Positions 8,885 to 17,337 of a stretch of DNA of 64,000 nt are shown one piece after another; positions within the stretch are counted from its first letter, which is position 1, and each line of letters starts with the position of its first letter. Origin of the DNA: Tetradesmus obliquus (taxonomy: Eukaryota > Chlorophyta > Chlorophyceae > Sphaeropleales > Scenedesmaceae). Location of the stretch: assembly GCA_030272155.1 (NCBI GenBank), contig CP126194.1, forward strand, positions 5,881,501 through 5,945,500, written 5' to 3'. The notes under the pieces are model-generated. The model worked only from the letters and a program-made list of their open reading frames with translations. It searched no databases and was not told the origin of the DNA. A program made the translations under genes and the position numbers.

Positions 8885-9459
8885 CTGAGTCAGAGAAAGC
8901 CCTCAGGTCGCACGTCGACCTGCACATCCTTCCACAGAGACTTCACCAGTGACAAAGAAGCTGTCAATCTGCCTGCGTGTTCGAAAACACTCGGGCCTGG
9001 CCTTCCTTGTTCCCGCGACGCTATCGGCAATCACAGACAGCACTTTGCACGCACACGGCATACGGCTCTTGAACTTCAATTGCACTGGTTTTGGGCCATT
9101 TCATTGAATAGCCTTCAGTTTCTGCCTGTGGGTACAGCGCACCGGCCGGCGGGATGATGAAGGCGGGAACTGCTTGCAAGGACAGACTAGACGCCACTAC
9201 AGCAGCGGCCTTCAATGCAAACCAGGTTGATTTCAAGGTATTAATGCATGATTTGTGGCCATGTATGTTTCCTGCGGTGCTGCTATAAGAACACAGCGCC
9301 CAACACTGTAGCCTGGTGTGTCTTGCTGCCGTATCGATAAAAGCAGCATCGCAGACGCCCACTGTTTGTTCTTGAAAGTCTTCGAGTGTAAGTCTGACAA
9401 GCTCTCTGCTCTGGCCCTGCTGCCCGTGTTGCACCCTTCCCATCACCCAGGCCTGCAGC

Positions 9460-11037
9460 ATGCAAGCCTCCAACGGCAGCAGCAAGTGCAGCAGCAGCAA
9501 CAACAGCAGCACCAGCAGCTGTTCCTGCAAGGCAGCATCCACCTGCCAGTGCGCCATATTATCTCTTTGGCAGCGGCTCAACACCATGACAGTATATGGC
9601 ATGGACCTGAACGCTCAGCTGGCAGCACGGGAGCAGCACATTGCAGGCCTGCAGCAGCGGCATTCCCAGCAGCAGGCGGCATGGGCAGCTATGTTTGCCA
9701 GCGTTGCCGCCCTGCACCAGCAGCAGCAGTCCCAGCAGCAGGCGGACTTTGCAGCTGTGCTCGCCTGCATGGCCGTGCAGCACCAGCAGCAGCAGTCCCA
9801 GCAGCAGGCGGCGTTTGCATGCCTAGCAGCAGCAACCTCTGCAGCACTGCAGCAGCAAACAAGCAGTGCAGCACAGCAGCTGGATGCCTGCAAGGCAGAA
9901 GCAGCAGACCCGCAGGCTCGGCTGACGGCTGAGGCCAAACTCGATGCAGCATATTGGGCCAAGCAGGACGCGCTGGTTGACTGCCTGCATGCTAAGCTTG
10001 ACGCCCGCAAGCAAGAAATAGTTGACTTGCAGGCGCGGCTGAGGGATGTGGTGGCAGAATCCACAGCAAGCGCAGAAGAATATGACGCATTCTCTGGCAA
10101 GCAGCTGGCAAAGGTTAGCCACCTGCATGCCCAGCTGGCAGAAGCCAATGGCGAACTGCAGATGCATCGCCGCCGCAGCAAGCAGAGCCTGCTGACTGGC
10201 CAGCTGGGCAGTGAGGGCCAGGGCAGCCCTCAGAGCCAGTCCCTGGCAGCAGCAACAGCCCAGCTGCAGGCCAGCAAGGCAGAGGTAGCTGAGCTGCAGC
10301 AGCGCCTGGAGCAGCACAAGCAGCAGGCTGATGCAGCAATGGCTGGCCTGGCAGAGCAGCTGCAGGCAGCTGAGGCTGTTGCTGCCAGCAGCAGGGGCCA
10401 GGCAGAGTTCGTGTTCCAGCAGCTGAGCCTCCTCGAGGCATGCAGCAGCATCCTGAAGGAGCAGCTGGAGTACCAGCAGATGCACATCATGGACCTGATG
10501 TGCCAGCTGGACGTTGAAAAGGCGTACAGCAGCAGCGTGCAGCTGCAGCTGGCTGAAGAGTGGCTGCACAGCAGCAGCCTGGGGAGCCAGTTGGATGCCT
10601 CAAAGGCACGCAACAGCAGCCTGGAGAGCCAAGTGATTGCTGAAAAGGAGTACAGCAGCAGCCTGGGGAGCCAGCTGGATGCCTCAGAGGCACGCAGCAG
10701 CAGCCTGGAGAGCCAGATGGCTGAAGGAGAGGCCCAAATCAGCTTCCTGCAGCTGGATAACAGCGACCTGCAGCGCCGGCTGGCTGCTCAACAGGCACAC
10801 AGCAGCAACCTGGAGTGCCAGCTGGCACAGCAGCAAGCCCTCAGCAGCTGCAATGAGGCTGTGGACCTGCAGCGCACCAGCAGCTGGGGCAGCAGCAGCA
10901 TGGCAGTGTCGCCCCGTGCTTCCAGCAGCAGTGGCGGCAGCACTGATTACCTAGGCATAATGGAGCAGCCTGACTGCGGCAGCGAGGTTGTGGTGGCTGA
11001 AACGAGCGTGGCCAACAGCTGCAAGTGCTTAGTTTGA
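9460..11037 (+). CDS. Coiled-coil protein of unknown function (copy 1)
   Basis: A single open frame of 525 residues, dominated by Gln, Ala, Ser, Leu and Glu with heptad-like spacing, so a long coiled coil is likely. Residues 1-42 are Ser/Cys-rich; Met43 (9586) is a plausible alternative start because similarity to the paralog at 39434 clearly covers that point (TM..GMDLNAQLAARE against TM..CMHQQAQLAAQQ). The middle has repeats such as HQQQQSQQQA. Near the C-terminus a roughly 35-residue unit (SSSLGSQLDAS.AR.SSLESQ) is tandemly repeated. The tail LQRTSSWGSSS is shared with the paralog, followed by a variable Ser-rich end with two Cys (KCLV). There is no membrane segment and no known domain that I recognise. 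It may be a cytoskeletal or scaffold protein, but this is not established. Confidence 0.75.
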   Translation: MQASNGSSKCSSSNNSSTSSCSCKAASTCQCAILSLWQRLNTMTVYGMDLNAQLAAREQHIAGLQQRHSQQQAAWAAMFASVAALHQQQQSQQQADFAAVLACMAVQHQQQQSQQQAAFACLAAATSAALQQQTSSAAQQLDACKAEAADPQARLTAEAKLDAAYWAKQDALVDCLHAKLDARKQEIVDLQARLRDVVAESTASAEEYDAFSGKQLAKVSHLHAQLAEANGELQMHRRRSKQSLLTGQLGSEGQGSPQSQSLAAATAQLQASKAEVAELQQRLEQHKQQADAAMAGLAEQLQAAEAVAASSRGQAEFVFQQLSLLEACSSILKEQLEYQQMHIMDLMCQLDVEKAYSSSVQLQLAEEWLHSSSLGSQLDASKARNSSLESQVIAEKEYSSSLGSQLDASEARSSSLESQMAEGEAQISFLQLDNSDLQRRLAAQQAHSSNLECQLAQQQALSSCNEAVDLQRTSSWGSSSMAVSPRASSSSGGSTDYLGIMEQPDCGSEVVVAETSVANSCKCLV

Positions 11038-11804
11038 TTGATACGTACTTTGGGCCACAGAATGCAAGTTGCTCCTTACTGACTGAGTGTATACGGCTTA
11101 TTGTTCAGGCTGTTCATTGCAAATACTGCAGCGTTCTGAACTGTGAATGGTTGTTGTAGAAAACCGAATTTGCGCAGCAGTGTTGTGAAGTGTGATGGTG
11201 ATTGCCATTCTTGTTTGACTCTTTGCTATTGAACTGCGATTGTGGCACAAGATATCATTGTGTATCGTGCAATAAAATGCGTTGAGAGAGAGGTTGGTTA
11301 CATCTGGGAATTGGCACCAACTTGGATGAGCATTGGCTGGTCATAATGTCCTCAAGTTGTTTTGGTGTTGTCACTTCGGCATGTTTGCGTTGGCTATCAT
11401 CAACCGTTAAGTGGTTTGTCAATGTAACATGCGTATTGAGACATAATACCCCGTCCATAGTGCAACAGCTGGAGTACTGGAAGGTTGAACCAACTATGAT
11501 ACCCAGCTGCACATGTGCACATGCGTAACCTTCGGTGGTACTGTACCGCCTGTTCAGTAACCTGTCTGCATGCCTGGACACTGGACCTTACAGAATCTTT
11601 TACCAAACTAAATAGTCCATGTCAAGGCCTGACGTGCGGTGACGCCTTGTCTCTGCTGCCAGAAGATTGAAAGTCACTTGGCAAGACAGATCTGCCACCA
11701 CAGTACGAAAATGCGTTGAACCACTCTCGGACAGCACGCGCATCATCCAAACCAGATGTACTTGTAATATTCACAAACTTTTTTTGTACAATATGCAAAA
11801 AGAG
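11038..11804. other. Intergenic; nothing recognised
   Basis: Relatively AT-richer spacer between the coiled-coil gene and the oxygenase-SUMO-like gene. It contains an AATAAA at 11271-11276, about 235 bp after the coiled-coil stop, which may or may not be a 3'-end signal in this organism. The 5' UTR and promoter of the next gene should lie here. Confidence 0.5.
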
Positions 11805-12396
11805 ATGGCCAGCAAGCCGATCAACCTGGGCCGAGACCCGCCATCAGCGCTGTTCAAGCAGCTAGTCAAGAACAGCTTCGCCATTATAGATAATCCCTTC
11901 GACTCCATCACGCTCGAGGCGCTAGATGTTTTGGCCGAATGGTTTCAGCTGCCTGGTGACACCAAGCAGGCAGCAGCAACAGCAGCAGCAGGCACAGCAA
12001 CAGCAGGCCGTGGCTTCTTCACCCTGCCCGACAAGGAGGTGCTGGAGGTGAAGCAGGGCTGGGGGCATGCAGGAGTGCAGCAAGATGTGCGGCTGGTGGT
12101 GCGTGAGGTGCGCAGCAGAAGCTGATGCGTTGTGAGGGCAGCTTGCTTGGCGTACTGTGCGGCAAGCTGTGTGTGAGTAACAGGACAAACTACGACATGT
12201 GCCATGGCAGGAGATGTACAACACGTCAAATGATTGGCAAAGTTTCTCTGCTGCTTGCGCGTGCAGGCATTTACTAGCCTGCAGAAGGTAGCTGCTACCG
12301 TGCTGCGATCGCTGTTCAGCAGCGACGCTGACAGTGGCCTGCAGGCAACAGAGCAGAAGCTGGAGAGCTGGATTGGCCAGCCAGCAGCAACTAGTT

Positions 12397-12444
<48 letters not shown>

Positions 12445-12914
12445 TGCTGCATGTGAGCAGCTACACCTCCAGCAGCACTAGCACTCAGCAAACACTGGGT
12501 GGCACTGAGCAGCATGTTGACAGGGGACTGCTGACAGTGATTGCTGACACAGGGCCAGGCCTGCAGGTGCGTTGGTAGCCCTCTTGCTGTTGTGGCACTT
12601 GGTTTTGTGCACTGACCAAATACTGGTGTTCAACCGTTACGGCTTTTCGCCGCAGAGCCAATTGTTGTTGGTCATTCTAAGAGTTGCTGCATCAGCACAA
12701 AGCCTGCTACGCCACACAGATGTCACATTGCACCATTTACTGCCTGCTATCGTGATTGTTTGGCATGCCTGACAGGTGCTGACGCCCGATGGCGCCTGGA
12801 CGCAAGTCACCCCCTCGCCCCAGCAGCTGGTGGTGCTGGTGGGCCACACGCTCAGCTGGGCAACGGCAGGCCGCCTGCCGGAAGCAGTGCACAGGATAGT
12901 GCCAGCCAGCACAT

Positions 12915-12946
<32 letters not shown>

Positions 12947-13424
12947 GGTGGTGTTGGCCCCAGGCTGTCGCTGGCATTCAAGCAACGTGCTGCTCCTCAC
13001 GCTGCATTTGCACCTGCTGCCATCACTGGCATCCCCAACAAGCAGCTGGACAGCAGGTGAGACAGCCACTTGTGTTGCAGGCCATGCTCTTGTTTGGCCT
13101 GGCTGCTGAGCCGGTTCATTGAGCTTTTGCAGGTTGAGGCTGCAGCTGATCCGCACATGCAAGCATAAGTGCGTGCATGTACAGTTGCTTGCCAAGTATG
13201 CAAACGCACCGTGAAGTTGTGATTACAGGAATCTATTGCTCATGGAAACCTCCAAATCACAGAGACGTACGCATGTTGCGACACGTTATCGTACACAGAA
13301 ACACGTGGTCATCCTGGCTGCTGCTTTCGCCGCCACCCTGCCGCAGGTACCGTGCCCTGAAGCGCACACATGAGCTGATGGCAGCGTTCGACGCAGCACA
13401 CCTCTCCCTACACAACAGTGCAGT

Positions 13425-13481
<57 letters not shown>

Positions 13482-13773
13482 CAGGAGCAAGCGCCCCTGC
13501 ATTGGCAGCGTTGCAGCAGCCCAGCCACAGCAGCACCGGATGATCAGCATCTCTGTCATGAATCAGACGGGTAGGGAAGTATTCTTCAAACTGCAGGACA
13601 GCGTACACATGGAGCGGCTGATGGAAATGTACGCCAAGCATGCGCAGATAGACAGCTGTGCATATCGCTACTTGTTCGACGGCCAGCGCCTCCACCCACG
13701 CAATACGCCCAGGGAGCTACACATGGAGGATGGTGACGTTGTGCGTGTCGACCTTGAACAAATTGGTGACTGA
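11805..13773 (+). CDS. 2OG-Fe(II) oxygenase with C-terminal SUMO-like domain (intact copy A)
   Basis: Predicted 436-residue fusion. Exons 11805-12107, 12267-12566, 12776-13056, 13347-13773 join in frame (437 codons). The N-terminal part resembles the plant DIOX_N fold (FAIIDNP, ALDVLAEWFQLP, GRGFFTLPDKEVLEVKQGW). The catalytic core has the metal triad His184-x-Asp186 (EQHVDRGLLTV) and His240 (AVHRIV), with the 2-oxoglutarate-binding Arg264-x-Ser266 (PRLSLAF). After exon 4 begins (RYRALKRTHELMAAFDAAH) comes a CAG-encoded Gln run, then a ubiquitin/SUMO-like fold at about 360-436: EVFFKLQDS, RYLFDGQRL, TPRELHMEDGDVVRVD, LEQIGD. SUMO normally ends its mature form in Gly-Gly; this ends Gly-Asp-stop, so conjugation is unlikely. 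An upstream in-frame ATG at 11793 would add four residues; 11805 aligns with copy B. The substrate is unknown. The fusion itself is supported by the same phase-2 junction (LDS-R) in both tandem copies. Confidence 0.85.
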
Positions 13774-15159: not shown

Positions 15160-17010
15160 ATGGACAGCCGACCGATAAACCTGGACCGAGACCCGCCATC
15201 GCTGCTTTTCAAGCAGCTGGCAGGGAACTGCTTCGCCATCGTGGACAAACCCACCGCATCGGTCACGACGGATGCTCTAGATGTGCTGACCGAGTGGTTC
15301 CAGCTGCCCAGTGGCACCAAGCAGGCAGCAGCAACAGCAGCAGCACCAGCAGGCACAGCAGCAGCAGGCCGTGGCTTCTTCGCCCTGCCTGACAAGGAGG
15401 TGCTGGAGGTGAAGCAGGGCTGGGAGCCTGCAGGAGTGCAGAGTACGGCCCGGCTGGCAGCTAACTCGGTGAGTAAACCAACTGAAAGTGCCAACCTAGC
15501 GTGTGAGTGATAGCAGTGTCACAGCTTGCAAGCACCAAGCCCTCTACAGGCCTGTACTCCTGAGGTCTGGGCGTGCTTCCTTGTTTGAAAATGAAGATTG
15601 CTCATCTGTTCGCTGACACACACGCAGAACATTTGTACCGCTATCAACAAGTGTCAAAGTGCTCATTGTCAGGCTATGCATGCTGATCTTTGCAGGCATT
15701 CAACGAGCTGAACACTGTGGCAAGCAACCTGCTGCAGCTGCTGTTCACAAGCGGTGCTGACAGCGCCCTCAGGGCCACACCGCAGCAGGTGCAGGCCTGG
15801 CTAGGCCAGCCAGAAGCAGGACCAGTTGCAAGCAGCACCACCAGCAGCAGCAGCACCGCCCGCAGCAACAGCAGCAGCAGCAGTGTCCTGCACGTGAGCA
15901 GCTACAGGTCAAGCAGCGAGAGCCGTGCCCAGCATGTGCTGGGTGGCAGTGAGCAGCACGTCGACAGGGGCTGCGCCTGCTGACAGTGATTGCTGACACA
16001 GGGCCAGGCCTGCAGGTGGGCATAGCCGTAGTCCTGCAGAATGGATGCGTAGCTGATGCTGTCTAGTTTTCAAGGGCTAACAGCATGTCTGACGTTGCTG
16101 TGCATCAAACCAGCACCCGAGCTGCAGCAAATTGAAGCTTCAACCCATGTTGCATGTCCAGTTGTTCCATTGCTGGCAAGGCTTGGCTGCAGCACAGGGC
16201 CTGTGCAGCCTTCCGCACCGCGTAGCGCATCACACTTATGTTTTGCTTGCTGTTTTACTGTTTATGTTGCTTGCTGACAACAGGTGCTGTCACGGGATGG
16301 AGTGTGGGTGCCAGTCACCCCCACCCCCCAGCAGCTGGTGGTGCTGGTGGGCCACACGCTCAGCTGGGCGACAGCAGGCCGCCTGCCCGCAGCAGTGCAC
16401 AGGGTGGTGCTGCCTGCACCAGCAAGCGGCAGCAGGAGAAGCAGCAGCAGCAGCAGTGGCCCCAGGCTGTCGCTGGCATTCAAGCTGCAAGCTGCTCCTG
16501 ATGCTAGGTTCGCACCTGCCGCCATCACTGGAACCCCCAACAAGGAGCTGGACAGCAGGTGAGACGGCAAGAGTCATCATGTCACGTTGTTGTGTTGGTG
16601 GCTGGTTCCTCTTGATTGAATTGCTAAGCTCTGCAGACAATGCAAAGGTTTTGTGACATCTGTCCCTCCGCATGTCCAAACACACAAGCATGTACATATG
16701 TGTATGTTCGCGCTTACAATCTGCAGGGCAAAGACATTGTCCATGGCGGTAGTTGCAGAGCTCAGAACATCTGTGTGTTGCTCTGCTACACGCTGTAGCG
16801 GTTGGTAGGACCCATGTACAACCAAACAACTCTGCAACTTGCACATCTGTCAGGCCGTGTGCATGAACCAAATGGTTCCTGCCTTTCATCTGCTGCTGTC
16901 TGGTGCCATCGCGGCCGTTCAAACGCAGGTTCCGTGGCCCCAAGCGCACACGTGACCTGATGGCCGCATTTGACGCCTTACACGATTCAATCCATAACAG
17001 CAGCCCCGTC

Positions 17011-17048
<38 letters not shown>

Positions 17049-17337
17049 CAAGAGCAAGCGCAGCCGCACCAGCAGCGCTGCAGCAGCACAGCCAAAGGAG
17101 CCTCGCTCGCTTTGCATCTCTGTCAAGAACATGCGCGGGCAGGAAGTGGTCTTCAGAGTCAAAGAGAACACGTGCATGGAGCGGGTGTTTGACGCATTCG
17201 TTCGCGCCCTGCAGATCGAAGAATTTCAGAGGTACACCTTCGAAGGCAGGCGCATTTTTGGATACGAAACACCCAGGGAGCTGGGCTTGCAGGAGGTTGA
17301 CATTGTGGATGCTTTGCTTGAGCAGCATGGTGACTGA
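15160..17337 (+). pseudogene. 2OG-Fe(II) oxygenase-SUMO-like gene, copy B, frameshifted
   Basis: Tandem duplicate of the 11805-13773 gene. Exons by alignment: 15160-15468, 15696-16015, 16284-16558, 16929-17337, with the same intron phases. Exon 1 encodes RPINLDRDPPSLLFKQL and the GRGFFALPDKEVLEVKQGW block. In exon 2, right after EQHVDRG, copy B has CTGCGC where copy A has a single A, a net gain of 5 bases that brings TGA into frame at 15981-15983. The rest of exon 2, the second-His exon 3 (AVHRVV, PRLSLAFK) and exon 4 with Gln run and SUMO-like domain (TFEGRRI, TPRELGL, ALLEQHGD) stay open in the original frame. It is therefore either a very recent pseudogene or a base error in the assembly. 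No splice pair of normal length would remove the shift. The SUMO-like part also ends Gly-Asp. Confidence 0.8.

Follow-up and report, generated by a model that had tools for sequence, protein, structure and literature searches.

A tandem gene pair of the green alga Tetradesmus obliquus predicted to join a plant-type oxygenase to a SUMO-like domain lacking Gly-Gly

Two tandem copies of a candidate gene that joins an oxygenase domain to a SUMO-like domain lie within the window, the whole 64,000-nt stretch of Tetradesmus obliquus DNA that was analyzed (G000:C4:5881501-5945500, from an assembly of 104.66 Mb in 17 contigs). The reading that we favor, and regard as reasonably probable, is a spliced nuclear tandem gene pair encoding a plant-type oxygenase, a Gln-rich linker, and a non-conjugatable SUMO fold that would serve as a fixed docking module. 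Among genome-maintenance scaffolds, fusions with a SUMO that cannot be conjugated have precedents; none was found in the open-licence literature for a metabolic-type oxygenase.

Structure of the first copy

Under the splice model, the first copy consists of four exons that join into a single open frame of 436 residues (the features of both copies are all on the forward strand). Exon 1 (11805-12107, residues 1-101) encodes the N-terminal part of the oxygenase and shares 72% amino acid identity with exon 1 of the second copy; a further in-frame ATG lies 5' of it, at 11793. Exon 2 (12267-12566, residues 102-201) contributes a Ser-rich insert together with Tyr167, His184, and Asp186, while exon 3 (12776-13056) carries the oxygenase core residues His240, Arg264, and Ser266 and a Ser-rich insert preceding the RxS motif. 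Exon 4 (13347-13773) encodes a linker with poly-Gln and PRSKRP, the SUMO-like domain, and a terminal Gly-Asp-stop. All three introns of each copy start with GT and finish with CAG. The 436-residue frame holds both Pfam domains above their cut-offs, bearing out the claim of a first-pass annotation that oxygenase and SUMO-like domain share one spliced frame.

Intron 3 (13057-13346) separates the enzyme exon from the linker/SUMO-like exon, and an in-frame TGA overlaps its donor in both copies (13057-13060 and 16559-16562), such that the unspliced reading frames stop there, ending in NKQLDSR in copy 1 and NKELDSR in copy 2. Because of this overlap, retention of intron 3 would yield a 295-residue oxygenase without the SUMO-like domain, and the arrangement makes an isoform switch by intron retention possible in either copy. 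The first-pass annotation had not recorded this TGA.

The locus also contains long CAG/AGC runs (12401-12443, 12916-12947, and 13426-13480), which encode Ser or Gln tracts in the oxygenase and the linker. One such tract sits between the distal His and the RxS motif, and their lengths vary from copy to copy. Upstream on the forward strand, at 9376-11037, is a stop-to-stop frame of 553 codons that is rich in Gln, Ala, and Leu and has a coiled-coil-like look.

The oxygenase part

The profile PF03171 matches residues 180-267 of copy 1 (E 7.5e-10, 39.5 bits against a cut-off of 23), and the five residues that had been proposed as the metal and 2-oxoglutarate site, His184, Asp186, His240, Arg264, and Ser266, all fall where they had been placed. 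A PDB sequence search with the enzyme part returned hyoscyamine 6-beta-hydroxylase at 9.7e-8, and the best PDB oxygenase scored 35.0 bits. The Pfam profile search gave no DIOX_N match in copy 1, and nothing came close to any cut-off among the NCBIfam profiles. With plant-type 2-oxoglutarate-dependent dioxygenases, such as hyoscyamine 6-beta-hydroxylase, GA2-oxidase, and ACC oxidase, the fusion shares the HxD...H...RxS arrangement and PF03171, but it differs from them in its weak similarity, its lack of DIOX_N, Ser-rich inserts at two places, and the added SUMO-like end. Judged by sequence, the enzyme part is most likely a plant-type (2-ODD/DOXC-like) 2-oxoglutarate/Fe(II) oxygenase.

The SUMO-like domain

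The SUMO-like end is equally recognizable. PF11976 matches residues 361-429 of copy 1 (E 1.4e-12, 47.6 bits against a cut-off of 23.8), and a PDB sequence search with the domain returned SUMOs from 2.9e-17. The three SUMO landmarks named by the first-pass annotation are present in the C-terminal part: YLFDGQRL from residue 403, TPRELHMEDGDVV from 415, and LEQ, within LEQIGD, from 431. When residues 357-436 (13531-13770, 80 aa) were submitted to structure prediction, the best of five models reached a pLDDT of 89.4 and a pTM of 0.77 and matched SUMO structures, with pLDDT ranging from 89 to 44 over the five models. The predicted structure thus agrees with the SUMO/beta-grasp fold that had been proposed for the C-terminus.

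The absence of the terminal Gly-Gly likewise stands, as the chain finishes Gly435-Asp436-stop. SUMO is a free modifier, whereas the fusion domain forms the end of a 436-residue enzyme chain. The alga's own SUMO ends in EQIGGSS (putative exons around G000:C5:4543657, L029); the fusions end in EQIGD-stop (copy 1), EQHGD-stop (copy 2), and EQVGD (P0002, an ENA protein described below). A chain without Gly-Gly does not undergo the usual SUMO maturation or conjugation, and the SUMO fold of the fusion is most likely not conjugatable by that route.

The surface of the domain was compared with SUMO at the positions, in SUMO2 numbering, of the SIM groove and the Ubc9 contact. In both copies and in P0002, the SIM-groove and acidic Ubc9-contact positions for the most part resemble those of SUMO. 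All three domains keep Phe32 and Asp82, with basic, aliphatic, aromatic, and acidic residues at 33, 34, 47, and 63, respectively. Exceptions in copy 1 include positions 35, 38, and 50, which are Gln, Val, and His and not Lys, Thr, and Arg; those in copy 2 include Ala50 and Gln79, and those in P0002 include Ala30, Gln42, and Ala79. The three domains share only 28-40% identity with each other. The best match of the copy 1 domain is the alga's own SUMO (67.2 vs. 32.8), and in a tree of eight SUMO-like sequences copies 1 and 2 group together (92), whereas P0002 falls with the SUMOs at 49, a support too low to place it. The SUMO-like domain is contained within one exon, while the SUMO gene of the alga is split into several.

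A second, tandem copy

The whole fusion is repeated in tandem at 15160-17337. This second copy, absent from the first-pass annotation, keeps the exon order of the first and likewise ends in Gly-Asp-stop. Its exon 1 lies at 15160-15468 and its exon 3 at 16284-16558. Exon 2 (15696-16015) is interrupted by a frameshift just past HVDRG, at about 15971-15976, and exon 4 (16929-17337) encodes a linker with poly-Gln and PKSKRS, the SUMO-like domain, and EQHGD-stop. A deposited T. obliquus protein, OEZ86_006800 (P0001), corresponds exactly to copy 2, including its C-terminus, apart from one extra intron, 15754-16001, which bypasses the frameshift but removes the HxD stretch. This intron probably arose from a gene predictor dodging the frameshift, in which case the public annotation hides the true domain. 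A fragment of exon 2 from another source (P0004) is of the copy 2 type and has no frameshift at the corresponding place; since it reads through the site, intact relatives of copy 2 exist. The tandem pair, with one copy damaged in an active-site exon, provides a natural comparison.

Conservation between the copies follows the exons. Comparison of copy 1 with copy 2 gave scores of 318, 244, and 319 for the first three exons, and 131 and 38 for the linker and SUMO-like halves of exon 4, against shuffle means of 17-19. The three introns each scored 18 against shuffle means of 16.0, 16.9, and 18.3. When the copies were compared by blastn, they aligned as separate exon blocks, including 12262-12569, 12772-13066, and 13314-13588, none of which spans an intron. 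Block edges fall within 10 nt of the boundaries for exons 2 and 3 and are less exact elsewhere, with the exon 1 block ending 27 nt early and the exon 4 block beginning 33 nt 5' of the acceptor. With exons alike between the copies and introns not, a single spliced gene is the most likely arrangement of the fusion. The joint between exons 3 and 4 in the P0001 model is identical to that in the copy 1 splice model. This contrast of exons and introns constitutes the strongest available support for the view that exon 3 is joined to exon 4 in life.

Among the best-scoring candidates in the same genome, exon 1 matched just the two copies at E < 0.1, with no third, and the SUMO-like end matched the two copies and part of the alga's genuine SUMO gene, and nothing else.

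Breadth of the architecture

A whole-protein search found at least two proteins that carry both PF03171 and PF11976, P0001 and P0002, among the 7,991 best word-sharing candidates, with both domains above cut-off in each. An alignment search, covering the 7,997 best word-sharing candidates, found P0001, P0002, and two fragments, P0003 and P0004, that match exon 1 and exon 2, respectively. Further members of the family may exist beyond the candidates scored. The first-pass annotation had held that no established family shows this arrangement; no paper on the fusion was found in the open-licence literature, but the architecture itself is already present in P0001 and P0002.

P0002, which represents seven member sequences from three contigs, is a distant ENA protein of 561 aa with PF03171 followed by PF11976 in one chain. 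Its enzyme part (residues 46-400) matches residues 76-249 of copy 1 with 43.2 bits, a score possibly raised by the Ser-rich insert that the alignment spans, compared with 35.0 for the best PDB oxygenase. Its SUMO-like domain scores 56.7 bits to the alga's own SUMO and 33.1 to copy 1. P0002 further differs from copy 1 in having a longer linker and a sub-threshold F-box-like match (E 0.011), and the SUMO-like domains of the two do not group. Structure prediction of the whole P0002 chain gave a pLDDT of 34. From the enzyme part, the domain order, and the ending, a common origin of P0002 and the T. obliquus fusions is plausible. That said, because the P0002 SUMO-like domain does not group with the two copies and scores better against the alga's own SUMO than against copy 1, the two fusions may be independent.

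Other searches returned no relatives. The SUMO-like end alone, as a region query, had no match among 8 candidates, and no confirmed relative of the locus was found in viral contigs or, with P0002 as the query, in bacterial and archaeal genome contigs. Separate Rad60-SLD matches on contigs C13 and C5 of the T. obliquus assembly (L010, L012, and L013, from 39 rows) were rejected as ubiquitin repeat units.

Selection and alternative explanations

The two copies have not diverged evenly. Between them dN/dS is 0.51 in exon 1, 0.38 in exon 2 as far as the frameshift, 0.44 over residues 202-287, and 0.38 in the linker, but 0.74 in the SUMO-like domain; amino acid identity is 76% over residues 202-287 compared with 40% in the SUMO-like domain. 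The SUMO-like domain is the fastest-evolving and least constrained part of the fusion. Its pN/pS between the copies has a 95% interval of 0.61-1.19, and since this includes 1, neutrality is compatible with the data. Such fast evolution speaks against a docking surface under strong constraint, and weak constraint and specialized binding fit it equally well.

These rates would fit a decaying passenger, a SUMO copy that landed behind an oxygenase gene, was stripped of its Gly-Gly, and has little function left as it drifts. The single exon of the domain, set against the multi-exon SUMO gene of the alga, is as expected for a retrocopy, and the frameshift in copy 2 also fits decay. Yet at 40% identity both copies still exceed the Rad60-SLD Pfam cut-off and keep EQxGD-stop, the majority of the SIM-groove and acidic positions are retained, and P0002 shows the same domain order and ending, leaving a decaying passenger an unlikely account, if one to be taken seriously. 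Less probable still is purely intramolecular control, in which the SUMO-like domain would fold back on the enzyme, for instance onto the SIM-like string VVLV at residues 220-223, and recruit no partner. Copy 1 contains 10 SIM-like strings, and the linker is long and of low complexity, which would suit such folding back; nine of the strings, however, are in the enzyme part, where hydrophobic strings of this kind are expected in the core strands of any oxygenase, and the tenth is inside the SUMO-like domain itself.

An arrangement of two genes, in which the oxygenase would end at the TGA that follows Arg295 and a short SUMO-like gene would begin at an internal Met of exon 4 (residue 306 or 360), would accommodate the stop of the unspliced frame at the intron 3 donor and the Met codons preceding the SUMO-like domain, and bicistronic transcripts exist in green algae (PMC11291117). 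It is nonetheless very improbable, since similarity between the copies continues 5' of the Met codons, past the acceptor by 33 nt (block 13314-13588), with RYRALKRTHEL and RFRGPKRTRDL aligned in frame, while intron 3 as a whole does no better than shuffles, the splice phase is identical in both copies, and P0001 and P0002 each have both domains in one chain. Neither intron 3 contains the signal TGTAA, a weak point given that the 1.06 kb after copy 2 also lacks it.

A possible docking function

Under the favored reading of a spliced gene with a built-in docking module, exon 3 would be joined to exon 4 by splicing, the enzyme would hydroxylate a substrate, and the SUMO-like end would act as a fixed docking module for SIM-bearing partners or for the back of the SUMO E2. 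Docking could bring the enzyme to complexes rich in SUMO, perhaps nuclear ones; the linker motifs PRSKRP and PKSKRS are no more than NLS-like. As the end needed for conjugation is lost, the SUMO-like module probably serves the enzyme as a docking element that is permanently attached. If the domain does dock partners of the SUMO pathway, it would link 2-oxoglutarate/oxygen chemistry to SUMO-organized complexes of the alga.

A bolder and rather doubtful idea is that the fusions represent an unnamed oxygenase class with a built-in SUMO mimic whose last residues are themselves functional. All three domains stop where mature SUMO stops (EQ-x-G-D) despite their low mutual identity, while Rad60 SLD2 has lost its tail (PMC2946365), so the Gly-Asp end could be a selected lock. 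Such a domain would enter the pockets of SUMO enzymes or SUMO proteases and escape conjugation, and the fusion might then be a SUMO-pathway-guided, or SUMO-protease-sensing, hydroxylase.

Comparison with known SUMO-like fusions

The first-pass annotation had suggested that the domain acts as an interaction module and not as a conjugated tag. The missing Gly-Gly agrees with this, but the principle is not new: for the RENi family (Rad60, Esc2, NIP45), it was proposed in 2005 that a SUMO stably fused and not available for conjugation serves as an interaction module (PMC549199). The same paper defines ubiquitin-domain proteins (UDPs) as proteins with an integral, non-conjugated Ubl, and the fusion, a multi-domain protein without Gly-Gly, falls within that definition.

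A locus elsewhere in the T. obliquus genome (L027, G000:C2:974085-977294) encodes a Rad60/NIP45-like C-terminal domain that ends in DGDTIDYYLQK, with no Gly-Gly, and is the probable RENi-type protein of this alga.

By analogy, the fusion may work like the RENi family without being a member of it, having a single SUMO-like domain with an enzyme in front. RENi proteins are not known to contain an enzyme domain. The two resemble each other in carrying a C-terminal SUMO-like domain within a larger chain (PMC549199), in the lack of Gly-Gly, and in the Pfam Rad60-SLD match, and they differ in that RENi proteins have two SUMO-like domains each (PMC549199), where copy 1 has one Rad60-SLD stretch behind an oxygenase. 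The C-terminal SUMO-like domain of Rad60 and Esc2, which offer the nearest model for docking by the fusion, binds Ubc9 via an acidic residue (PMC2946365 and PMC7891725). In yeast SUMO is unable to substitute for Rad60 SLD2, and Rad60 also has an E2-independent function (PMC2946365), which means that the role of such a domain does not follow from its resemblance to SUMO. Rad60 SLD2 has no tail and an obscured groove (PMC2946365), whereas the oxygenase fusion retains an EQxG tail and most of the groove residues.
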